From: Tsuneonella suprasediminis
GTDB taxonomy: Bacteria > Pseudomonadota > Alphaproteobacteria > Sphingomonadales > Sphingomonadaceae
NCBI RefSeq assembly: GCF_003605755.1
Contig: NZ_RAHJ01000021.1
Coordinates: 48,662 to 112,661, forward strand
Reading direction: 5' to 3'
Length of the DNA stretch: 64,000 nt
A model generated the notes under the pieces. It saw nothing but the letters and a program-made list of their open reading frames with translations, made no database searches and was not told the DNA's origin. Position numbers and translations under genes: made by a program. Below are positions 26,667 to 55,217 of the stretch, piece by piece. How positions within the stretch are numbered: position 1 is the stretch's first letter; each line of letters begins with the position of its first letter.

Positions 26667-27449
26667 ATGGCAGGACGGGTAGCGGGCAAGCTGGCGCTGG
26701 TGACAGGCGCGGCGCAAGGGCTCGGCGCAGCACACGCGCACACGCTGGCACGCGAAGGGGCGCGGGTTCTGTGCACCGATATCAACGGCTCTGGCGCCGT
26801 GGAAACGGCCGCTGCGATCGATGCCGAATATGGCGCGGGCACCGCCTATGCCATCGAACACGATGTGACCGACCCCGCCCAGTGGGACGCAGCGATAGAG
26901 GCGGCGCGCGATTTTCTGGGCGGGCTGTCGGTGCTGGTCAACAATGCCGGGGTCGGTGTGCGTGGCAATATCGAAACCTGCACGCTGGAAGAATGGCGGC
27001 GCGGCTTCGCGATTAACGTCGATTCGGTATTCCTTGGCTGTCAGAAGGCATTGCCGCTGATGAAGGATCATCAGCCCGGATCGATCGTCAATATCAGTTC
27101 CATTGCCGGGCTGATCGCCAGCGATACCATGCCGGGCTATAACGCCAGCAAGGCGGCGGTGTGGATGCTGTCGAAATCGGTCGCGCTCTATTGCGCCAAA
27201 ATGGGGTGGAATATCCGCTGCAATTCAGTCCACCCGACATTCGTGGACACCCCCATCCTCGACGGAATATCGAAGAACGCAGGTATCGAAAAAGACGTGG
27301 TGATGGGCAAACTGGCGCGTCAAATTCCGCTCAAGCGGGTGGGTGCGCCACAGGAAATCGCCGATGGGGTACTGTTCCTCGCCAGTGACGAAAGCAGCTT
27401 CATGACCGCTGCCGAACTGAAGCTGGACGGCGGCATCAGCGCGATGTGA
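26667..27449 (+). CDS. Short-chain dehydrogenase/reductase
   Basis: This 260-aa classical SDR shows the NAD(P)-binding TGAAQGLG (residues 13-20), NNAG (92-95), and the catalytic Ser144, Tyr158 and Lys162 (YNASK). Asp38 after the second strand (LCTDIN) suggests preference for NAD(H). Closest in pattern to 3-alpha/20-beta-hydroxysteroid and cyclohexanol-type dehydrogenases. Substrate unknown. The ATG at 26667 has GGGAGA upstream; the frame extends five codons further into the NUDIX gene. Confidence 0.88.
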   Translation: MAGRVAGKLALVTGAAQGLGAAHAHTLAREGARVLCTDINGSGAVETAAAIDAEYGAGTAYAIEHDVTDPAQWDAAIEAARDFLGGLSVLVNNAGVGVRGNIETCTLEEWRRGFAINVDSVFLGCQKALPLMKDHQPGSIVNISSIAGLIASDTMPGYNASKAAVWMLSKSVALYCAKMGWNIRCNSVHPTFVDTPILDGISKNAGIEKDVVMGKLARQIPLKRVGAPQEIADGVLFLASDESSFMTAAELKLDGGISAM

Positions 27450-44988: not shown

Positions 44989-45162
44989 ATAGCTGACCGG
45001 CTGAATCCCGGCGGCATTGATAACCAGAGCAACGGCACCGGATCAACGTGCAGGGGCCACACCAATACTCGCCGCACCCGCCGACGCGCCCGCCGCAAAA
45101 TAAAAACTCTGGCCGCGCAACCACCTAACCTCCCGCGATATTTTCGTCCTCACTTTCCAGAC

Positions 45163-45189
45163 TGGCGGACTTCGCCGTCCGGCTGCGTT
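45163..45189 (+). promoter_or_regulatory. Shared ECF-type promoter motif, upstream of the OmpA-family gene
   Basis: TGGCGG (45163-45168), 17 bases, CGTT (45186-45189), 48 bp before the ATG. One of five copies at identical spacing in this region; context at the -10 is GGCTGCGTTG, the same ten bases seen before the trimeric autotransporter gene. Confidence 0.65.
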
Positions 45190-45237
45190 GATCCTGATGC
45201 ACGGAGATTTTCCATCCGACGGAGGGGATACGACAAC

Positions 45238-46347
45238 ATGGCTATTCGAATATTCAACCACCACGCACGCATCATCGCAGCAAGCACAGCGCTGGCAATC
45301 ATCGCAATGGCACCCGGCCATGCATCGGCTCAGGGGCTGTTCGGACAGATAACCAAGAGAGTGAAGCAGGCGGTCCAGTCCGAAGTTACCAACAAGGCGG
45401 AAAAGGAAACGCGCAAGGCAACCCGGTGTGTTTTGGGGGAAGCCGACTGCGCCGCTCAGCAACGCCAGCGCAACAACAATGGATCAGCGAACGGCAGTTC
45501 CGCTTCGGCAGACCTCACCTCAGGGCCAAGCGCCTTGATTTCGCCCTACCCCGGCTCTGTAGAGCAAAGCCGGGAATATCAGGACTATACAGACTATCCA
45601 CGTGTCATCGGCATGGACCGGAGCCGCCATGCCGAAACGCAGGTACTCGAAGGCGCATTGACCCGCCTGCTGTATAACAACCCCAAAGGCCGCTCGACCC
45701 TCGAATTGATCCGCAACTATCGTAATGCTCTGGAAGCGCGGGGCTTCAAGGTCGATTACGAAGTTCCCAATGCCAAAAGCTGGATTCTCAATATTCGCGA
45801 GGCCAACGGCATGATCGCCTATGGCACGGATGTGCGCTATTTTACCGGCAAGCTGCGGTATAACGATGGCACCGCATACGTTTCCATTCTGGTCTATCGC
45901 GAAGCCAGCGGGTTTGGCCGGACCAATATCCATATCCTGCAAACCAACGAGATGGATGCCGGCATGGTCGGAGTCGATCCTTCAGCAATGGCCGCCGAGC
46001 TGGAGCGTAGTGGCGAAGTCAACCTCAAAGGGGTGTTCTTCGACACCGGGCGCGCCACATTGCGCCCCGAATCCAGCGCGGAACTGGATACCGTGGCATC
46101 CCTTATGGCGTCACAACCCCAACTGACGATGAAAATCGTAGGTCATACCGACAGCACCGGCAGTATGGCGAACAATCAGGCGCTCTCCCTTCGACGCGCC
46201 GCAGCTGTGCGGGATGCACTGATAGCGCGTGGCGTGGATGGTCAGCGATTGCACGCGATCGGCATGGGAAGCCGCGATCCAATCGCCAGCAATGCGACTG
46301 ATGAAGGCAGAGCTCAAAACCGCCGTGTCATGCTTGTGCGGCAATGA
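45238..46347 (+). CDS. OmpA-family outer-membrane/periplasmic protein
   Basis: This 369-aa protein has a signal peptide (cleaved after GHASAQ), a basic/Asn-rich low-complexity part to about residue 100, a ~130-residue middle domain (PGSVEQSREYQDYTDYPRV..., FGRTNIHILQTNEMD) and a C-terminal OmpA peptidoglycan-binding domain (VFFDTGRATLRPESSAEL, KIVGHTDSTGSMANNQALS RRAAAVRDAL, NRRVMLVRQ). It likely anchors the envelope to peptidoglycan. A strong GGAGGGG ribosome-binding site and a shared promoter motif precede it. Confidence 0.88.
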   Translation: MAIRIFNHHARIIAASTALAIIAMAPGHASAQGLFGQITKRVKQAVQSEVTNKAEKETRKATRCVLGEADCAAQQRQRNNNGSANGSSASADLTSGPSALISPYPGSVEQSREYQDYTDYPRVIGMDRSRHAETQVLEGALTRLLYNNPKGRSTLELIRNYRNALEARGFKVDYEVPNAKSWILNIREANGMIAYGTDVRYFTGKLRYNDGTAYVSILVYREASGFGRTNIHILQTNEMDAGMVGVDPSAMAAELERSGEVNLKGVFFDTGRATLRPESSAELDTVASLMASQPQLTMKIVGHTDSTGSMANNQALSLRRAAAVRDALIARGVDGQRLHAIGMGSRDPIASNATDEGRAQNRRVMLVRQ

Positions 46348-46516
46348 CAGTGACCACGGCTGTGGTGAGCCTGTGAAAAGAGCCTGGTGCAGAATGAACG
46401 CTTTGAACCGGCTGTCTCCGGTAATCTGCGTCACTCGCTATCGGATATAGATCATGCTGCGTCGTTCGCGGGTTTGATATAGCAACCAAAGCGGCCCCAA
46501 AACGACATCGCCCGAC

Positions 46517-46570
46517 AGGAATACCTGATGATGGCACTCTGACATCGGGGTGCTGCTGTCAGGTATTCCT
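46517..46570 (+). promoter_or_regulatory. 12-bp inverted repeat upstream of the sigma factor gene
   Basis: AGGAATACCTGA (46517-46528) and its exact reverse complement TCAGGTATTCCT (46559-46570), 30 bases apart, ending 37 bp before the sigma gene. Each arm is itself nearly palindromic (AGGAATACCT). It could be a two-site operator or a long stem. The sigma gene lacks a convincing copy of the TGGCGG-N17-CGTT motif, so control may act through this repeat. Confidence 0.55.
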
Positions 46571-46606
46571 TGAAACGGATACAAATTCCGCAATAAACAT
46601 AGGGTG

Positions 46607-47158
46607 ATGACCAGTCGTGCAAACCCGCTTCCGGCAAGGGACGGCCAACTCAGCCTGTCGGAGGAGTTGCTTGCCGAAACGTATGATGCGCTACGCAGGA
46701 TCGCGTCGCGCCAGTTGTCGCGGCAATCCGGTACGCCATCGCTCAACACAACCCTGATCGTCCACGAGGCATGGCTGAAGCTGGCCGGAGATGAACAGCG
46801 GCGGTTCAACGACCGAAATCACTACCTTGCTACCGCTGCCAGAGCGATGCGGCAAATTCTGGTGGATCATGCCCGGCGCAAGGCGACCGACAAGCGCGGC
46901 GCTGGCGCGGTGCACCTTGATATCGACGATTGCTTTGTCGCGGACGCAACCCCGATGAATGCCGTACTCACCGTGGATGAGGCGTTGGAGGCGTTGTCTG
47001 CCCATGCGCCTGAGCTGGAGTCGGTGGTCGAATGCCGTTTCTTTGGTGGACTGACCACTCAGGAAACCGCCGATGCGCTGGGCCGATCGGTCCGTACCGT
47101 TGAACGGCAATGGGCCCGCGCGCGCGCTTATCTGAGCGAGGAATTCCAGCCGGAATAA
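46607..47158 (+). CDS. ECF sigma factor, kinase-associated type (ECF43-like)
   Basis: This 183-aa sigma-70-family factor has region 2 (LAETYDALRRIASRQLSRQS ... LIVHEAWLKLA, FNDRNHYLATAARAMRQILVDHARR) and region 4 with an HTH (LTTQETADALGRSVRTVERQWARARAYL). The pattern is that of the TIGR02999/ECF43 group, which has no anti-sigma factor but sits beside Ser/Thr kinases. The segment equivalent to the acidic DAED of ordinary ECF factors reads LNTT; Thr49 aligns with the phosphorylated Thr of Vibrio EcfP. Start ATG 46607 (the GTG one codon earlier is also possible). The kinase lies 1.6 kb downstream. Confidence 0.9.
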   Translation: MTSRANPLPARDGQLSLSEELLAETYDALRRIASRQLSRQSGTPSLNTTLIVHEAWLKLAGDEQRRFNDRNHYLATAARAMRQILVDHARRKATDKRGAGAVHLDIDDCFVADATPMNAVLTVDEALEALSAHAPELESVVECRFFGGLTTQETADALGRSVRTVERQWARARAYLSEEFQPE

Positions 47159-47345
47159 ACGGCCCACGCCGACATACCGCTACAGGCAGGATGGGGTATC
47201 GGGCCATTCCTGCCCTGAATAAGTCGCGGCCCGTCCCTCCATAAATCACGATACGCACGGCATTTGCGTCGAGCGACAGAATGTTGCCGCGCGGTTGACC
47301 TGGGCGTGCGCTGGTTCGGTCGCGCCATGCTTCGCCCCGCTCTGG

Positions 47346-47372
47346 TGGCGGGAATGGCAGCCAGGCTGCGTT
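47346..47372 (+). promoter_or_regulatory. Shared ECF-type promoter motif, upstream of the trimeric autotransporter gene
   Basis: TGGCGG (47346-47351), 17 bases, CGTT (47369-47372), 104 bp before the ATG. It is in the 318-bp gap between the sigma gene and the adhesin gene; nothing else is recognised in that gap. Confidence 0.65.
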
Positions 47373-47476
47373 GTTCCTTGCATGACACTCGCTCCTCCCA
47401 CGCGCTGAACACCGGCGCGCCGCCACTCTCGGCAATCGCAATTCATCTTTCACGCAGTAACTAAAGGACTTCATTC

Positions 47477-48493
47477 ATGGCGAAATACGAACTGTCTGTA
47501 GGCTCACGGCCTACGCTTGCCATCACTCTGATGAGCAGCATGTTATGCTTGCTTCCTGCCTCTCCGGCCCATGCCGATAGCACTGTCGAATGCAATGTCG
47601 GGCCCGGGATCAACTCTAGCGAATGTGGTGCTGTCAGTGTTGCCAGCGGCCTTGCTTCCACTGCCGTCGGCGCATTCACCAAGGCAACGGGAGACAAATC
47701 AACTGCAGTCGGTGTTGCAGCTGACGCTGGTGGCGATGGTTCGACCGCCATCGGCCAGACTGCCTTGGCTACCGCTAACAATGCCATCGCAGTTGGCAGA
47801 GCGTCCACGGCGACCTTCGGCAATGGCATTGCTTTGGGCGCCGGTTCCGCTGCTCTGGCCACCAATTCGGTGGCGATCGGTTATGGTTCTCTGGCGGGGG
47901 AGAACAATACTGTCTCTGTCGGCAGGGAGGACGCCGAGCGGCGGATCGTCAATGTTGCTGACGGCATCAACAGCACCGACAGTGCCAATATGGGCCAACT
48001 CAACAAGGAGACGACCCAGCGCACCGCCGCAGATGCAGCGTTGCAGGGCAATATAGACACCAACACCGCCGGGATCGCTGCCAATGCCACTGCGATCTCT
48101 GGCAACACAGCGGGCATTGCTGCCAACACAACGGCCATCGCGACCAATACGACGGATATTGCCGCCAGTATGGCCGCAGTCGCCAGCAACATCGCCGGGA
48201 TTTCAGCCAATACCGCACGGATCGACGATCTCTATGCGATCACGGACCACGACCGGCGTCAGGCGCAGCGTGGAACCGCTGTCGCCCTGGCGTTGACGGC
48301 AGCACCGATGCCCTCGCAAACCGGCCGAACAAGCTACACCTTTAACCTCGCAACCTATCGCGGGGCGCAGGCTGCGGGTCTGTCTCTCGCGCACCGCGTC
48401 GACAGCGACAATCCCTTTGCCATAACCGCTGGGGCTTCGTTTGCGGGTAAAGGGGACATCGCCGCGCGGATCGGTGTTGCCGGCGAGTTCTGA
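47477..48493 (+). CDS. Small YadA-like trimeric autotransporter
   Basis: This 338-aa protein has a signal peptide (cleaved after SPAHA), a YadA-type head of repeated AxGxxAxAxGxxS units (about residues 45-150: STAVGAFTKATGDKSTAVGV, NNAIAVGRAS, NSVAIGYGS), a neck (NTVSVGREDAERRIVNVADG, DSANMGQLN), a coiled-coil stalk of repeated NTAGIAANATAI-like units, and a four-strand YadA anchor ending in F (AARIGVAGEF). Three chains would form one outer-membrane barrel displaying a short lollipop adhesin. Unusually small for the family. GGAC before ATG. Confidence 0.9.
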   Translation: MAKYELSVGSRPTLAITLMSSMLCLLPASPAHADSTVECNVGPGINSSECGAVSVASGLASTAVGAFTKATGDKSTAVGVAADAGGDGSTAIGQTALATANNAIAVGRASTATFGNGIALGAGSAALATNSVAIGYGSLAGENNTVSVGREDAERRIVNVADGINSTDSANMGQLNKETTQRTAADAALQGNIDTNTAGIAANATAISGNTAGIAANTTAIATNTTDIAASMAAVASNIAGISANTARIDDLYAITDHDRRQAQRGTAVALALTAAPMPSQTGRTSYTFNLATYRGAQAAGLSLAHRVDSDNPFAITAGASFAGKGDIAARIGVAGEF

Positions 48494-48547
48494 TTCCATT
48501 GGCGGGGCGTACAATCGGCCAGATTGTCTGGTTGCCGATACGCGACG

Positions 48548-48575
48548 GGCGCGCAACGCAATCGCGTTGCGCGCC
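48548..48575 (+). terminator. Strong hairpin downstream of the trimeric autotransporter
   Basis: GGCGCGCAACGC (48548-48559), loop AATC, GCGTTGCGCGCC (48564-48575): a perfect 12-bp stem 54 bp after the stop, followed by GCCCTTCTTC. It separates the adhesin transcript from the kinase promoter motif at 48625. Confidence 0.65.
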
Positions 48576-48624
48576 GCCCTTCTTCGCGGGGGGAGCGCGA
48601 CAAGCTAGCCCCCCGCCCCCCGTA

Positions 48625-48651
48625 TGGCGGGAATGAGCCATCCTCTGCGTT
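48625..48651 (+). promoter_or_regulatory. Shared ECF-type promoter motif, upstream of the kinase gene
   Basis: TGGCGG (48625-48630), 17 bases, CGTT (48648-48651), 96 bp before the kinase ATG. GGGAATG and CTGCGTTG are shared with the adhesin copy at the same nine-base distance although the bases between differ. Confidence 0.65.
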
Positions 48652-48747
48652 GAAGAATCAGGATGCACTTGGTTGGCGCTCGCATTTGAGCCATGATCGC
48701 GAGCGGAGAGCGCGCGGGTTTTCGATAGTGGGAGAACGGCTTCGGCA

Positions 48748-51240
48748 ATGCCGCACAACACAGGGTCTCAACCGGGCGCGGATGCCCGACAGCGTGTCGA
48801 TAGCGCGTTCGAGGCAGTGCTCGATCTGCCCGATGGCGACCGTGCGGCATGGGTTGACCGTCATTTTGCCGATGCCCCCGAACTGGCCCGCCGCACCCAC
48901 CGGCTGATCTCGGCGGAACGGCGCAGTCGAAAACTGTTCGCAAATCTGCAATTCGAACGCGATTGCATGTTGGAAACCGCCGTTCCCGACATCGCCGGTG
49001 CACCGGGCGACGACCCACGGATCGGCCGCCGCTATGGGCCGTGGCGCGTCATGCGGCATCTGGGATCGGGCGGGCTTTCCGAGGTTTACGCAGTGGTCCG
49101 CGACGATGGCCGCTATCAGCAGGATGCCGCGCTGAAAATTTTGCGTAGCGGCCATTTCGGCACCGATGCCAAGGCGTTGTTCATGCGCGAACGCCGCACG
49201 CTGGCAAGCCTCAGCCATCCGGCGCTGGTGCGGATCATCGATGGTGGCGAAACCGCGACCGGATCGCCGTGGTTGGTGATGGAGCAGGTCGAAGGACAGC
49301 CGATCACCACATATGCCCGTGAACAGGCACTGCCGTTGCAGGAACGGCTCGACCTCGTCGCGCAATGCGCCGATGCATTGCAGGCCGCGCATGAACGCGG
49401 TGTGTTGCATGGTGATATCAAGCCCGATCACCTGATCCTGCAAAGCGATGGGATGGTCCGGCTGCTCGATTTCGGGATCGCGCAATTGCTGGGGGAAGAT
49501 GGTGCGGCGGATGATGTCGTCGCCCTGACCCCGGCCAGCGCTTCGCCTGAACAATATGAAGGGCAGCGACTGACGACCGCAAGCGACATATTTCAGCTCG
49601 GCAAGATATTGGACGAGATCACAGCGGGTAAGCGGGTTGGCCCTGAACTTGCCGCCATCATCGCGCGTGCGACTGCCCCCGATCCCACCAGCCGCTATCG
49701 TTCGGCGGCCGCGCTGGCCACCGATTTGCGCCGTTTGTTGCAAGGTCAGGCAACCGAGGCGCTGCCTGACACCGCGCCGCGCGCGCTGAAGCGGATCATG
49801 CGGCAGAATCGGTTGGCGAGCGCGCTGGGGGCCCTCGTCCTTGTGGCGCTGGCCGGGTGGGGTGCCACGGCAACGGTCGGCGCCTGGCGCATCGATCGCG
49901 CGCGGCAGACTGCCGAGATCGCCGCCGATCGCGCGGAACGTGGGAGGCAAGCCTTGCTTGACCTGTTCCGCCGTGTCGATCCGCTCGAACTCGATGCGAC
50001 CGGGCCGGTTTCGTCGAACAGTATTACAATTATCGATGAAGCGCTGGCCGATGCCAGGAAACGGCTGGCGGACGACCCGGCCCTGCTGGGACGGCTCAGT
50101 GGATGGGCGGCGCGGTTGCATCAGCGCGCCGGACAGGATGGCCGGGCCGCCGCGCTGGCCGCGGACGCGGAAGCGTTTGCGCGACAGGCTGATGGGACGC
50201 AAAGCAGCGAATATGCCGCTGCGCTCGCCTATCGTGCGCGGCTGGCGATTGAGCGCGGGTCAACGGTGCCCGGCAATGCAGACATGGTGCGCGCGCTTGA
50301 AATCATCGATCGCGCCGGCGCCAGCGACGAGGCATCGCTCGACACCCTGTTACTGGCAGCCTGGTCGAAAGAGGGGGACTGGCAAGCGCAACTGCCGCTG
50401 TTCCGTCGTGCCGCCGCACTGGCGGAAACGCTCGATATCGATAACGCGCGGATCGAAGCGGGATCGGGCATTGGCCGTGCGCTGGATGGGCTGGGACAAC
50501 TGGACGAAGCCGAACGGCACGTGCGGTTCGTGCTCAATCTGGCGGAAAAGCGATATGGCCCAGACCATCCGCGCCTGACGCTGCCGTTGTCCGATCTGGG
50601 GCGTATCGCGCAGCATCGCGGCCAGCCGCAAGATGCGGCCCGATGGCACCGGCGCGCGCGCGACATCGCCATTGCCGCCTATGGGCCCAATACACCGGCG
50701 GTTCTGTCCCATCGCAACAACCTCGCAATGGCATTGCAATCGGCAGGCGACCTGACGAGCGCGACGGGCGAACTGCGTGCGATCTACGCCTTGCGCGTTC
50801 GTCAGGACGGAGCGGATGCGCTGGCCACCGGCGAAGTCGCTCAAAATCTGGCGTCCGCGCTGGTCCGAGCACACAAATATGACGAAGCGGAAAAGTATCT
50901 CGCGATTGCCGAACGGGTGTTCGCCCGCAATCTGCCGGCGGGCCACCCGCGGCGCATGTTCCCCGCGCTCACGCGATCGGAAATGCGGATGGCACAACAT
51001 CGCTGGCGTGAGGCGGAGGCCGAAGCAGCGCGGGCGCTGGGCGGTTTGCGGAACGCACTGCCTGCCGGCCATTTTGCCATCGCCACCGCCCAATGCCGGG
51101 TGGCCACAGCACGGCTGGAACAGGGCGACAGCAAAGCCCTGCCGACTTTGCGCGAAGCGGTTTCCGCGTTGGGCGCCGACGGCACGCCCGATATCTATCG
51201 CACCCCTTGCCAGGCCGCCCTGCAGCGCTTTTCTTCCTGA
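48748..51240 (+). CDS. Membrane serine/threonine protein kinase with TPR-type C-terminal domain
   Basis: This 830-aa protein has an N-terminal ~95-residue helical segment, a Hanks-type kinase domain (about 100-335), one TM helix (about 357-379) and a long helical C-terminal part with TPR-like pairs (RALDGLGQLDEAERHVRFVL, GRIAQHRGQPQDAARWHRRA, LASALVRAHKYDEAEKYLAI) that should be periplasmic. Kinase motifs: P-loop LGSGGLSEVY, Lys130 in AALKIL, HGDIKPDHLI (221-230), DFG at 241-243, SPEQYEG. The catalytic loop has HGD instead of HRD, a non-RD kinase. Likely partner: the ECF sigma factor upstream. It carries its own copy of the shared promoter motif. Confidence 0.92.
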   Translation: MPHNTGSQPGADARQRVDSAFEAVLDLPDGDRAAWVDRHFADAPELARRTHRLISAERRSRKLFANLQFERDCMLETAVPDIAGAPGDDPRIGRRYGPWRVMRHLGSGGLSEVYAVVRDDGRYQQDAALKILRSGHFGTDAKALFMRERRTLASLSHPALVRIIDGGETATGSPWLVMEQVEGQPITTYAREQALPLQERLDLVAQCADALQAAHERGVLHGDIKPDHLILQSDGMVRLLDFGIAQLLGEDGAADDVVALTPASASPEQYEGQRLTTASDIFQLGKILDEITAGKRVGPELAAIIARATAPDPTSRYRSAAALATDLRRLLQGQATEALPDTAPRALKRIMRQNRLASALGALVLVALAGWGATATVGAWRIDRARQTAEIAADRAERGRQALLDLFRRVDPLELDATGPVSSNSITIIDEALADARKRLADDPALLGRLSGWAARLHQRAGQDGRAAALAADAEAFARQADGTQSSEYAAALAYRARLAIERGSTVPGNADMVRALEIIDRAGASDEASLDTLLLAAWSKEGDWQAQLPLFRRAAALAETLDIDNARIEAGSGIGRALDGLGQLDEAERHVRFVLNLAEKRYGPDHPRLTLPLSDLGRIAQHRGQPQDAARWHRRARDIAIAAYGPNTPAVLSHRNNLAMALQSAGDLTSATGELRAIYALRVRQDGADALATGEVAQNLASALVRAHKYDEAEKYLAIAERVFARNLPAGHPRRMFPALTRSEMRMAQHRWREAEAEAARALGGLRNALPAGHFAIATAQCRVATARLEQGDSKALPTLREAVSALGADGTPDIYRTPCQAALQRFSS

Positions 51241-51263
51241 AAAGCGCTGAACCCGCAGATAGT

Positions 51264-51290
51264 GGCGGAATTCCGCCGCGCTTCTCGTGA
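51264..51290 (+). promoter_or_regulatory. Shared ECF-type promoter motif, upstream of the HAF autotransporter
   Basis: TGGCGG (51264-51269), 17 bases, CGTG (51287-51290), 58 bp before the ATG. The last base of the -10 differs from the other four copies. Confidence 0.55.
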
Positions 51291-51348
51291 TGAAAGATGA
51301 CAGGCAGAGCCGTGAGGCCCCGCCACAGCTTCATTCGAGGGGATTTAC

Positions 51349-53544
51349 ATGACAGCCACGCAGACATTCGGGCGGAATGCGAACTTGCGCCTTATCGGTA
51401 TGACCAGCCTGATGGCTTTGAGCGCGGCCTTGGTCCCAACTGGCGTTCAGGCACAGGATATTCCCGAAGAGGAGATGGTCGAGCTTGGCGATTTGGGTGG
51501 GGACCGCTCGATCGCGACCGAGGTTAACAGCGATGGTTCTGTTGTATTCGGATATGCCCAGAACGAAGCGGGCGCCGCGCGGATGGTCCTGTGGCAGAAC
51601 GGTGTGGCGAACGACATCACTTTGCCCGGTATCGTCTATAGCGAGGCTGTGTTGGATATCAGCGGCATCTCTCGCGGGCTGATGAGCCGTGACGGATCGA
51701 CCGTTGTCATTCGCGCCACGGTGGATCTGCCAGAGGGCGGAATCTACCTTTATCGCAATGGCACCGCATCACGCATCGACCAGCCGTCTGCGCCGGGAGA
51801 ACTGGTCATCGAAGCGGTGACCGCGCTCGATCGCGACGGGTCCACCCTCGTGGGCTTTTCCTTCGTCGATGGGGATCAGCACGCTGTCCGCTGGACCGAG
51901 GAGGGCGCACAGGACATCGGCGTGCTTGGCGGTACAACCTCGTCCGCTCTCGCTGTCAGCGGCGATGGCTCGATCGTGGTGGGGATATCCGACGTCGATG
52001 GCGGAAGCCGCGAGGCCTTCCGCTGGTCTGGCGGCACTATGCAGAGCCTGGGCGCATTGACTGGCCAGACGACGGGCGGCGCCAACCTGATCAGCGACGA
52101 TGGCAGTGTCATCGCGGGCTATGCGCGGGTATTGGACGGGTCGGGCGGCGACATTCGTCGCACATTCGTCTGGCAGGATGGCACCATGTCAGACATTGGC
52201 GATCTGGGCGGGTCCAATGTCACGGCCACGGCAATCAGCGCCGACGGGTCCACGATCATCGGTCAAAGTGACCATAGCAATCCCGATGTCTATAATTCAT
52301 CGCAAGCCTTTTACTGGCGCGACGGTGTGATGCGTGAAATCGGCTATCTGCCGACTGACGATCCCAACGGCGCCTACACCGTTGCCAAGGCAGTCAGCGG
52401 CGATGGCGGCGTGATCGTTGGGAGTGCGCGCGGCGAAACGAGCGGGAGCTCCGTTGCCTTTCGCTGGACCGACGATGGCGGCATCGTCGCGTTGGGCACA
52501 CTGGGCGGCAAAAACTCAAGAGCCACCGATGTGAGCGAAGACGGCACCACAATCGTCGGTGTGTCCGACAATGCCGAAGGGCAGAGCCGGGCCTTCATCT
52601 GGCGTTCGGTCATGCAGGATTTCACCAATCTGCTCGCCTCGTTCAGCGGGCTGGCCGAAGAAGGCGAACTGGCGATCGAAGAACAGCAGCAGTTCACCGA
52701 AATAGCCGCCGCACCGGGCTGCGATCCGGCCGGGCGGCGCTTCTGTCTGGGGGTTGAGGGATACGGCTGGACATCGGCAGGCACCGCACCAGTAGGCCGT
52801 CGTGAAGCCATCGGAGCGCGGCTCTTCGCAGGCGTGGGCCTGACAGAGGGGCTCAGCATCGGCGGCGGCTACGCCTGGGCCGATCCGTCGATCAAGGATG
52901 ACCGGACGCATGAAAGTGGCGCCCATGCATGGTCGGTGTCGCTCGATTACAAGGCGGCGACTTCAGGGCCGTTCGCCCGTTTGTGGTATGCCCACGCGCG
53001 CGAAAGCCTGTCGCTTGTCCGCGGCGAAGGCTTTGCCGACGTACAACCGATGAACGGAACCGCAGCGCTTGGCAGCGACAGCTTCGGCCTGCGCGCTGGA
53101 TATGGCTTCGCCTTACCGGGCGGCATGAATTTGCGCCCGTGGGCGGCGTTTGAGCGGCGCAATAGCGAGCGCGATGCATTTCTCGAAGCAGGCGGCGATT
53201 TCCCGGCGCACTTCGCCGCCATCGAAGCGAAACGCACAGTTGCCCGTGCCGGAATCGATATGGAACTGCCTGTCGGGCAAAATCTCTTGCGCCTCGGCTT
53301 TTCGCTGGAAACCGACCTGACCGACGATCCGATCATGATCGCCGGAACCTCCGACATTCCGGGTATGGAGTCATTCACCCTGACATCGAGCCTGCACCGC
53401 AAGGATCTGCGCGCACGCTTTGGGGCGGGATACGACGTACCGCTTGGGCCGTTGACGATCGGGATCGGCGCAAGCGCGAACAGCCCGGTTTATGGCAGTA
53501 GCTGGCAGATCGGCGGCGCAGTGCGCGTGTCAGCATCCTTCTGA
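51349..53544 (+). CDS. HAF-repeat autotransporter
   Basis: This 731-aa protein has a signal peptide (cleaved after GVQAQ), a passenger of about seven HAF repeats (~50 residues each, residues 35-425; pattern LGDLGG-S-A--VS-DGS-IVG, with a following W--G), a short linker, and an autotransporter-type beta-barrel (about 460-731: GARLFAGVGLTEGLSIGGGYA ... GGAVRVSASF) ending in Phe. The repeats probably form a beta-propeller on the cell surface. Ligand unknown. Its stop overlaps the next gene (TGATG). One transcript with the lipoprotein gene is expected. Confidence 0.85.
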   Translation: MTATQTFGRNANLRLIGMTSLMALSAALVPTGVQAQDIPEEEMVELGDLGGDRSIATEVNSDGSVVFGYAQNEAGAARMVLWQNGVANDITLPGIVYSEAVLDISGISRGLMSRDGSTVVIRATVDLPEGGIYLYRNGTASRIDQPSAPGELVIEAVTALDRDGSTLVGFSFVDGDQHAVRWTEEGAQDIGVLGGTTSSALAVSGDGSIVVGISDVDGGSREAFRWSGGTMQSLGALTGQTTGGANLISDDGSVIAGYARVLDGSGGDIRRTFVWQDGTMSDIGDLGGSNVTATAISADGSTIIGQSDHSNPDVYNSSQAFYWRDGVMREIGYLPTDDPNGAYTVAKAVSGDGGVIVGSARGETSGSSVAFRWTDDGGIVALGTLGGKNSRATDVSEDGTTIVGVSDNAEGQSRAFIWRSVMQDFTNLLASFSGLAEEGELAIEEQQQFTEIAAAPGCDPAGRRFCLGVEGYGWTSAGTAPVGRREAIGARLFAGVGLTEGLSIGGGYAWADPSIKDDRTHESGAHAWSVSLDYKAATSGPFARLWYAHARESLSLVRGEGFADVQPMNGTAALGSDSFGLRAGYGFALPGGMNLRPWAAFERRNSERDAFLEAGGDFPAHFAAIEAKRTVARAGIDMELPVGQNLLRLGFSLETDLTDDPIMIAGTSDIPGMESFTLTSSLHRKDLRARFGAGYDVPLGPLTIGIGASANSPVYGSSWQIGGAVRVSASF

Positions 53545-54011
53545 TGCGCCGTTTCGCCATCGCGGCCGCCACGTTGCTTGCCGCAGCGTGTTCTGCGACC
53601 CCGCCCGCTGCACCAATGGCCGATATGCCCGATATGCCCGATATGACATCGGGCACACCCTATTGCGCTGGCATGGCTGTGTGGGAAGTGCCCGATTATC
53701 CGGTCCGCCTTGCCGCGCCATCGGGGGCGATCGTGACGGCCAGTGGCATCGCAGATGGTGTAGATGCCTCCGGCATGATTGACGTGACCCTTAAGACACT
53801 CGGCACCCCGGACGAAATTGCTGCATTCTACGCATGCGCCCTGCCCTATATCGGGCGCGACAATGTCGCCCCGTTGCCCGGCGGAGCGCACGGTTTTTCT
53901 TATACCGGGCCGGGCGGCAGGCGGGGCCGCGTTGTCTTACGAGTTTACGATCTCCCCTTTCCCGACGACGGCTGGGACACATTCATCAGGATTACCGAAA
54001 CGCAGCGCTAA
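53544..54011 (+). CDS. Small lipoprotein coupled to the HAF autotransporter
   Basis: This 155-aa protein has a signal sequence with lipobox AAAC, then an unusual Met-rich tandem MADMPDMPDMTSG at about residues 26-38 (encoded by repeats of GATATGCCC), and a compact domain (VPDYPVRLAAPSGAIVTASG, IAAFYACALPYIGRD). The DVTLKTLGTPDEIAAFYA segment resembles the small domain of the two lipoproteins encoded opposite. Start shares a base with the preceding stop. Function unknown; Met/Asp-rich segments can bind copper, which is speculation. Confidence 0.75.
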   Translation: MRRFAIAAATLLAAACSATPPAAPMADMPDMPDMTSGTPYCAGMAVWEVPDYPVRLAAPSGAIVTASGIADGVDASGMIDVTLKTLGTPDEIAAFYACALPYIGRDNVAPLPGGAHGFSYTGPGGRRGRVVLRVYDLPFPDDGWDTFIRITETQR

Positions 54012-54025
54012 GCTGCTGAGCCAGA

Positions 54026-54526
54026 TTATAGCGGTCCGGCAAATGTGATGATGATATCGCGATATCCATCGCGAGAGATGACTTGCGTCATGGCTGGCGA
54101 ATCCCCCGCTCCGGTAAAACCGACAAGCTTTGTCTTCGCCCCTGGTTTGTCGTTCAGTTCGGGATTGAGGTTCCTGTTTTTTGCCCAGTCAAAAAAGGCA
54201 TCGGCATAAGCTTTTGCATCTACCAGAGATTTGGCTTGCACCATGTACAGGTCCGGTTCGCCGTTACGCGGGATATGCGTTGCCAGATAGATATGCGCGT
54301 CTTGCGGAAGCGGCATGTCCTGCGGCATCCAGTCGGGTCTGGGCAGATTGACGCTGCCGAGCAAGCTTTCGTCGCCATCCTCAATCGTGAGAACGCCCTC
54401 GACCTGATTGCCGGTGGCGCCTTTTTCGGAAACATCGCCACCGCCTGCTCCATCGCTGCATCCGGCCAGCGACATTGCCAGAGCGAGCATCAGCGCGTTC
54501 CGTGTCACGCGAGGTCCCGACATCAC
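54026..54526 (-). CDS. Hypothetical lipoprotein, paralogue A
   Basis: This 166-aa protein has a signal sequence with lipobox LAGC and a Gly/Ser-rich linker, then LPRPDWMPQDMPLPQDAHIYLA and SLVDAKAYADAFFDWAKNRN. The layout matches the preceding gene's product: an LP-D-P-D--LP-D start, a central AxAxxxxFxxxL helix, and a final GF/DG--D--IT-strand. Its start overlaps the stop of that gene (ATGA). Convergent with the HAF operon, 14 bp apart. Function unknown. Confidence 0.75.
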   Translation of the reverse strand: MMSGPRVTRNALMLALAMSLAGCSDGAGGGDVSEKGATGNQVEGVLTIEDGDESLLGSVNLPRPDWMPQDMPLPQDAHIYLATHIPRNGEPDLYMVQAKSLVDAKAYADAFFDWAKNRNLNPELNDKPGAKTKLVGFTGAGDSPAMTQVISRDGYRDIIITFAGPL

Positions 54527-54951
54527 TGCCCCGCCTTCGTATAAGTGAGCATGAAATCGCGATCCGCGCCGTCGTCGCGGACGCGGATATTGCCGCCTTG
54601 CACCTGTTTGCCCTCGAAATAGATTTCAAGTGGGTCGGTAATCTCGGCACGGTCCGTCAGAACATAACCGGCATCGGAGAGACGCTTTGTGAAACCTTCG
54701 ATGATCGCCTCCGCGCTTTGTCGGCTGCGGCCTTCGATGAAGACATCTCCCGGCACTGGCGTGCTTGCAAGAACCAGCCGGGTATCCTCCGGCAGCGCGA
54801 TATCGGATGGAAAATCAGCGGGTAGCTTGACAGTCTGCCCGCCAGCTTGCGTTTCCACCTGCGGTGCGGTCGCGGATTGATCCGCCGATGATCCGCACCC
54901 TGTCAAAATGCTGGCACCGACAAGCCCGACGAGCGTCGCATATTTTCGCAT
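54523..54951 (-). CDS. Hypothetical lipoprotein, paralogue B
   Basis: This 142-aa protein has a signal sequence with lipobox LTGC, then VKLPADFPSDIALPEDTRLV and SRQSAEAIIEGFTKRLSDAGY, with a C-terminal IRVRDDGADRDFMLTYTKAG strand pair. I chose ATG 54951, which has AGGAGG upstream and begins the signal sequence; the open frame to 55146 is not coding-like. A copy of the shared promoter motif lies 37 bp upstream, so the A/B pair probably belongs to the same regulon although transcribed in the opposite direction. Confidence 0.8.
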   Translation of the reverse strand: MRKYATLVGLVGASILTGCGSSADQSATAPQVETQAGGQTVKLPADFPSDIALPEDTRLVLASTPVPGDVFIEGRSRQSAEAIIEGFTKRLSDAGYVLTDRAEITDPLEIYFEGKQVQGGNIRVRDDGADRDFMLTYTKAGQ

Positions 54952-54987
54952 TGGCCACCTCCTGAATAATACCGTTCCACCCTGACA

Positions 54988-55014
54988 AACGGGAGATGCA
55001 CGCGAAATCCGCCA
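54988..55014 (-). promoter_or_regulatory. Shared ECF-type promoter motif, upstream of the lipoprotein pair (minus strand)
   Basis: On the minus strand TGGCGG (55014-55009), 17 bases, CGTT (54991-54988), 37 bp before the ATG at 54951. An exact match on the opposite strand to the other four. Confidence 0.65.
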
Positions 55015-55217
55015 GAACTGCCTGTCGCTTGCCGGTCTGTTCGGACCACCGGATTGCATGCTGAATGCGGCGGGGGGCGGATGAGGCATGAGTTCCACAG
55101 TGGGTGCGATGGTCGCTTCTGCCGTCAATCCGGCAGCTCGATTCAACGATAACGGCGGGTTATCGCCCGCCCCCGGTTGAAGCGTTCGGCTTCCTCTGGC
55201 ATCGGGTGCCAGACACC

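Follow-up and report, generated by a model that had tools for sequence, protein, structure and literature searches.

Which factor drives the genes of a small cluster of surface proteins in Tsuneonella suprasediminis, and how is that factor itself controlled? The question is raised by a 64,000-nt stretch of this genome (contig NZ_RAHJ01000021.1, positions 48,662 to 112,661, forward strand; the whole stretch is hereafter called the window), in which the sequence TGGCGG, a 17-nt spacer and CGT(T) recur upstream of five transcription units. These units are grouped around the gene for an extracytoplasmic function (ECF) sigma factor, and together they form a 10.2-kb islet at 44989..55145. An initial annotation of the window had read the five elements as the regulon of that sigma factor. 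We hold it to be very probable that TGGCGG-N17-CGTT is the -35/-10 promoter pair recognized by the sigma factor, which is of the ECF43 type, and that a Ser/Thr kinase of the islet would activate the sigma factor in a positive loop governing a surface-protein regulon. The motif, its spacing, its conservation, its link to one clade of sigma factors and the kind of genes behind it were all computed here.

The motif and its fixed spacing

A pattern search confirmed that the five-site observation is real. The elements precede the OmpA-family gene (45163..45189, plus strand, predicted start at about 45199), the trimeric autotransporter gene (47346..47372, plus strand, about 47382), the kinase gene (48625..48651, plus strand, about 48661), the HAF autotransporter gene (51263..51289, plus strand, about 51299) and a pair of lipoprotein genes (54988..55014, minus strand, about 54978). 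The HAF site is a CGTG variant and had been placed at 51264, which we correct to 51263. According to the gene calls of the open reading frame list all five predicted promoters are intergenic, as annotated, at distances of 48, 104, 96, 59 and 36 nt from the respective start codons; of the range of 37-104 bp first given, the upper end stands and the lower end becomes 36 nt. The window contains seven matches to TGGCGG-N17-CGT, where shuffled sequences average 1.55 and none of 100 shuffles reached seven. The two further matches are at 26994 on the plus strand, where the next base is neither T nor G, and at 47425 on the minus strand (CGTG), which shares the gap ahead of the trimeric autotransporter gene with the 47346 site and points in the opposite direction. 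Between 43001 and 57000 TGGCGG-CGTT occurs four times at spacing 17 and not at all at the other spacings from 10 to 24, and the remaining 50 kb of the window has no match to TGGCGG-N17-CGTT, which bears out the remark that CGTT is missing at this distance from the other TGGCGG sites checked.

Conservation in relatives with the same cluster had been named as a test of the motif, and the same motif at the same spacing was found there. In a first set of five orthologous clusters (L068-L072, where L068 is from T. flava and is a near copy of the window) TGGCGG-CGTT was present 16 times at spacing 17 and three times at 14 other spacings together. A further 19 sigma factor loci were fetched from titled records, genomes and metagenome-assembled genomes; five of them repeat earlier ones, and the 14 not examined before, Hyphomonas included, contained the pair 38 times at spacing 17 versus 0-4 times at each of the 11 other spacings in the range 12-23. 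When all pairs of a 6-mer and a 4-mer with gaps of 14-19 were compared, TGGCGG-N17-CGTT came first, also in L069-L072 alone (p ~3e-14), and it was again at the top in the 14 new loci, in 13 of which it was present (p 5.7e-38); both p-values are Poisson estimates and take no account of relatedness (L094, for example, is close to L093), and the spacing comparison is independent of them. With TGGCGG and CGT(T) at a fixed spacing upstream of the target genes, the element has the form of an ECF promoter.

For a profile of the motif we used 66 sites, none of them from the window or T. flava. The starting set of 73 N17-CGT matches covered 18 loci, with 16 matches in L069-L072 and 57 in the 14 new loci, and seven were dropped from it (L089 10065 and 20517, L091 14630, both matches of L094, which are close copies of L093, L096 16427, and L071 4361). 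TGGCGG and CGT are invariant among these sites by selection, while the other positions were free to vary. A purine follows TGGCGG in 59 of the 66 sites and is itself followed by a T/A-rich stretch; T (44) and G (44) precede CGT and T (50) follows it, giving the extended form TGGCGG-R-W-T ... TG-CGTT. Ten nucleotides past CGTT there is a purine in 57 of 66 sites, and all five window sites, which lie outside the set, have a purine at the same position. This purine is probably the transcription start; TGGCGG would then span -36 to -31 and CGTT -13 to -10.

Scanning the host genome (3.3 Mb, 22 contigs) with the profile gave 14 matches, and the five sites took ranks 1 (OmpA), 2 (trimeric autotransporter), 3 (lipoprotein pair), 4 (HAF autotransporter) and 6 (kinase). 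Such scans scored 150 of the 1138-2051 first-look candidates per genome, so that weak sites may be missed, and the lower-ranked genome matches were inspected by script only. The match at rank 5 lies inside a long frame that reads by eye as pyruvate phosphate dikinase and was rejected as chance. At rank 9 (C2:176766-176792; L115, L151) no long frame covers the site, which precedes a gene for a DUF4870 membrane protein. This gene is present in two of 11 Tsuneonella genomes, the host and T. flava, both of which have the islet, and the motif copy is kept in T. flava; the site is a candidate for a further regulon member.

The sigma factor clade, the target genes and the kinase

The sigma factor gene (46604..47158, plus strand, starting at GTG 46604 or ATG 46607) matches TIGR02999 (E 2.4e-55) and PF07638 (E 8.6e-41), a family which we take to cover ECF43. 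Its product scores 187 bits against TIGR02999, where the cut-off is 126, and is the sole protein in the genome above that value; three other matches are weaker and none exceeds it. Like ECF43-type factors it combines the family match with Thr in place of acidic residues in region 2.2 and a Hanks-type kinase gene nearby. A homologue at E <= 1e-18 is present in 56 of 397 genomes of the family, host included, and one with at least 64% identity in only six. In an unrooted tree 20 sigma factors split from 15 distant homologues with support of 99/99; the clade of 20 bears the motif and spans Erythrobacteraceae, Sphingomonadaceae and Hyphomonadaceae, and the nearest relative of our sigma factor is that of T. 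flava (G004, Erythrobacteraceae), which carries the islet. Region 2.2 reads NTTL or NTTM in all 20 members, with NTT invariant, and the second Thr of NTTL (codon 46751-46753) is the candidate phosphorylated residue.

Outside this clade the spacing signal was not found. The 15 distant ECF43-like clusters have no peak at spacing 17 (CGTT three times at 17 versus 0-5), nor did they yield any other clear motif, and the matching region of nine islet-free congeners has no excess at this spacing (one at 17 versus 0-7). Four of the distant sigma factor genes (L073, L075, L076 and L079) are near trimeric autotransporter genes, again with no motif excess. In the cluster of genome G389 (L149) no sigma factor gene was found; all that is left of the kinase is a remnant and the OmpA gene is interrupted by a stop codon in frame, but its motif is unimpaired, as would be expected of a cluster decaying after loss of the sigma factor.

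The genes behind the motif are of a distinct kind. When the five window sites are added to the 66 of the profile, 17 of the 71 precede the kinase gene (one of them, L105:10529, counted there since the kinase follows, although our script chose a 382-residue frame) and 54 precede other genes. An exported-type N-terminus was predicted for 50 of these 54 as opposed to 75 of 220 long frames that served as controls under the same treatment (p 8e-16); choosing the start codon behind each site favors hydrophobic N-termini, and the same rule was applied to the controls. Sites at other spacings (34 of 139) and random positions (940 of 6000) served as additional controls. We chose 1.85 as the hydrophobicity limit with the values already known, and the contrast holds at limits from 1.5 to 2.2, where 51 to 33 of the 54 versus 90 to 42 of the 220 qualify (p 7e-9 to 3e-15). 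The exceptions number four, namely two proteins of one Yip1-like family, a 2382-residue autotransporter and one CxxCxxCC protein, perhaps a chance case. Different gene families are motif-led in different lineages. Proteins with an LCCL domain were seen behind the motif at L071:6429-7353 and L072:5602-6555; to our knowledge such proteins are rarely mentioned in bacteria.

We also ran the profile on eight genomes that bear the sigma factor and obtained 12 matches outside the sigma factor clusters. Three of them, in Hyphomonas chukchiensis, are on different contigs from the sigma factor gene, which is itself about 35 kb from the nearer contig end, and they precede two lipoprotein genes and one gene for a secreted protein, with 46.9-56.7% identity to their best-matching motif-led cluster genes elsewhere. 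Because it was the motif that led to these genes, with no selection by kind, we regard them as the strongest sequence evidence that the motif is served by a regulator acting in trans in H. chukchiensis. A match in H. johnsonii (C12:65105; L188) precedes a gene for a 209-residue lipoprotein-like protein that resembles no cluster gene. The conserved spacing, the link to the sigma factor clade, the exported-type targets and the H. chukchiensis sites together support the initial assignment of the five sites to the sigma factor encoded at 46604/46607.

The kinase gene (48748..51240, plus strand; PF00069, PF13424) encodes a membrane Ser/Thr kinase composed of an N-terminal extension, a Hanks kinase domain, a transmembrane stretch recognized by eye and a TPR region. 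Its best match in the PDB is 9eed_A, which is PknS, covering the N-terminal extension and kinase domain (residues 11-335). A kinase gene is located 0.1-5.2 kb downstream of the sigma factor gene, on the same strand, in 20 of 20 clusters, with other genes between them in some; in this count the kinase of L094 is cut by a contig end and that of L103 was matched in two pieces. The motif precedes the kinase gene in 18 of the 20 clusters, 14 with CGTT and four with another last base.

Weighing the proposed regulation

Direct recognition of the motif by the sigma factor, phosphorylation, positive feedback, start sites and the signal are what we infer from the sequences, and the following scheme would accommodate them. 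A housekeeping-type promoter of its own would supply the sigma factor, which would at first be inactive because region 2.2 has NTTL in lieu of acidic residues. Two genes downstream lies the gene for the membrane kinase, which would sense something via its TPR region and phosphorylate the sigma factor, for which the second Thr of NTTL is the best candidate. Active sigma factor would then drive the kinase gene, closing a positive loop, together with the genes for outer-membrane proteins, autotransporters and lipoproteins, and in H. chukchiensis the regulon would extend to homologous genes on other contigs. On balance we favor the broader view that this is a portable cassette, made up of a kinase-activated sigma factor, its own kinase with positive feedback and exchangeable surface proteins sharing one promoter code, in which families may join, leave and move and yet stay wired; with the motif, a clade of ECF43 sigma factors activated by kinases would then have its first target promoter.

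A number of observations weigh against this scheme. Counted over the whole genome, the bare pattern shows no enrichment: there are 33 matches versus 26 to the reversed control, ten congeners summed have 139 versus 129, and one of these ten, which is without the sigma factor, has 18 versus 7. The genome-wide count is moreover inflated because six of the 33 matches are one mobile 27-mer repeat near contig ends (L002, L004, L010, L023, L026 and L027). Another of the 33 lies inside a tRNA-Leu gene. The L002 copy of the repeat adjoins a frame that by eye is transposase-like. We have rejected genome-wide enrichment as an argument, and it is clustering and conservation that carry the claim. Since the bare motif is not enriched, the regulon in this genome is therefore local, and essentially the 10-kb islet. 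Eight of the 12 off-cluster matches mentioned above have no recognizable exported gene behind them and look like chance. In T. flava, whose sigma factor is 98% identical to ours, the motif is missing before the kinase gene, as it is in L104. The positive loop suggested in the initial annotation thus fits 18 of the 20 clusters and fails in these two, and on the sequences we take it to be the rule in the clade and not essential. Finally, 13 of the 20 kinases, including that of the window, have the catalytic loop HGD..H, with His for the usual Asn, which makes kinase activity less than certain.

The motif was also not found before the sigma factor gene itself in the window. What precedes it is a predicted housekeeping-like promoter, TTGAAA-N18-TAAACA (46570..46599, plus strand), located by eye 7 nt before ATG 46607, and a TTGAAA-N17/18-TAGACT-like element was likewise seen by eye 7-9 nt before the sigma factor ATG in five clusters (the window and L088-L091). 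Because this element and no motif precedes the gene, production of the sigma factor appears to be constitutive, with regulation acting on its activity and not on its quantity. An element so near the ATG would make the mRNA leaderless. In some Hyphomonas clusters the sigma factor gene follows a small gene led by the motif, from whose promoter it may also be transcribed.

Could the motif belong to a different factor, such as a second sigma factor like EcfG, a repressor or an activator, with the sigma factor of the islet a mere neighbor? The resemblance of the CGTT -10 box to EcfG promoters would suit such a reading, as would the three weaker TIGR02999 matches in the genome, although none of these is over the cut-off. 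However, GGAAC-N15-18-[CG]GTT is absent from the islet, the motif tracks the sigma factor clade across three families with no excess at the empty site, and the fixed 17-nt spacing with a purine 10 nt downstream suits a promoter over a repressor site; we therefore consider a different factor improbable. Even less credible is that the sites are alike through recent duplication or shared promoter ancestry and not through function. The T. flava sites are indeed near copies of those in the window, but in 16 pairs of sites at orthologous genes only 30% of the upstream flank, 42% of the downstream flank and 45% of the spacer are identical while both boxes are kept, where the boxes were a condition of selection and the orthologous position was not. 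That the motif stands before different gene families in different lineages also argues against duplication.

A reading to be taken more seriously, though we still think it rather unlikely, accepts the promoter assignment and denies that the kinase activates the sigma factor via the Thr of region 2.2; control would instead be exerted through the level of the sigma factor or phosphorylation of a linker, or the kinase would be impaired. The His in the catalytic loop points this way, and so does EcfK of Xanthomonas citri, for which the portions of PMC13147305 drawn upon here cite an earlier study where the T51A variant still restores function, and indicate that T106 in the linker matters. A figure legend in the same paper, however, gives both T51 and T106 as necessary in vivo. 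In the clade the Lys, the catalytic Asp and DFG are kept, six kinases (those of Hyphomonas and L104) have the standard HRDIKPDN loop, that of L103 being unreadable, and the invariance of the NTT Thr along with the constant presence of a kinase gene downstream of the sigma factor gene is consistent with activation through this residue.

The islet and its relation to known systems

The islet lies between genes for a GNAT protein and a DUF1285 protein, and the span of 45163-55014 delimited in the initial annotation matches it almost exactly. In nine of nine congeners (L132-L140) these two genes are adjacent in the row GNAT-DUF1285-nudix-pcnB and the islet is missing; no homologues of islet genes were found in the fetched stretch of these genomes. 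Its ends, compared over 300 bp each, share no direct or inverted exact repeats of at least 10 bp, its G+C content shows no contrast (0.617 versus 0.623), and none of 22 candidate relatives in viral contigs was confirmed. The islet starts with the gene for the OmpA-family outer-membrane protein (45238..46347, plus strand; PF00691, E 1.3e-24), which has a signal-peptide-like N-terminus. The sigma factor gene comes next, followed by the gene for a trimeric autotransporter with YadA head and anchor (47477..48493, plus strand; PF05658, PF03895), the kinase gene and the gene for the HAF-repeat autotransporter (51349..53544, plus strand; TIGR02913, PF03797). The stop codon of the latter is overlapped by a small lipoprotein-like gene (53544..54011, plus strand), which probably forms an operon with it; homologues of this small gene recur in several clusters, and in L069 one sits directly behind a motif site. 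The lipoprotein pair on the minus strand consists of a first gene at 54523..54948, with a lipobox by pattern, and a second at 54026..54526, a homologue of which is motif-led on another contig in H. chukchiensis.

A strong hairpin (46517..46570, plus strand; -44.8 kcal/mol for a 131-nt stretch, z -4.1) separates the OmpA gene from the sigma factor gene and is a candidate terminator or attenuator. It is long, near-perfect and common to T. flava; the sequence was not found in L089-L091, and L091 has a different strong hairpin at this position.

How do the motif and the islet relate to what is known? The general-stress promoters of Alphaproteobacteria, which are read by EcfG (ECF15), have the form GGAAC-N16-17-CGTT. 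Our motif is like them in its CGTT-type -10 box and spacer of about 17 nt, and unlike them in its -35 box, TGGCGG versus GGAAC. No mention of the TGGCGG motif was found in the parts of the sigma factor and ECF43 literature consulted, and a predicted logo may exist in work on ECF re-classification or on EcfP.

Kinase-activated ECF sigma factors amount to a handful of cases, and in the same parts of the literature no target promoter was found for them. A clear conserved promoter and a small, listed regulon would open the class to direct tests, such as reporter constructs, prediction of regulons in further genomes and measurement of how phosphorylation affects promoter use. The islet would also illustrate how surface proteins can move as a package with the system that senses and governs them, a point of relevance to the remodeling of the bacterial surface under envelope or contact signals.

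As described in the portions of PMC8999054 and PMC13147305 on which we draw, ECF43 sigma factors are without the acidic residues that grip the core polymerase, and a phosphate added to Thr by a kinase substitutes for them; the consensus of region 2.2 is given as QTTA (PMC13147305). Two described pairs, which we know from these same portions, are close parallels. EcfP-PknT of Vibrio parahaemolyticus is like our system in the absence of the acidic DAED, in the Thr motif in region 2.2 and in having the kinase gene nearby (PMC8999054), and differs in having STTA where ours has NTTL and in its role in polymyxin resistance, as opposed to the islet surface proteins and the target promoter proposed here. 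With EcfK-PknS of X. citri we share the architecture of the kinase (830 versus 833 residues, N-terminal extension, kinase domain, membrane helix and TPR region) and an ECF sigma factor nearby. EcfK, by contrast, carries QATE and governs a type VI secretion system; the part of the published account consulted gives no promoter motif for it, and the DNA in its models was taken from an E. coli sigma-E complex (PMC13147305). The kind of system is thus known from these pairs, while the promoter, the surface-protein regulon of the islet and the wiring appear to be new against the literature consulted, so that the word "undescribed" in the initial annotation can be kept provisionally.

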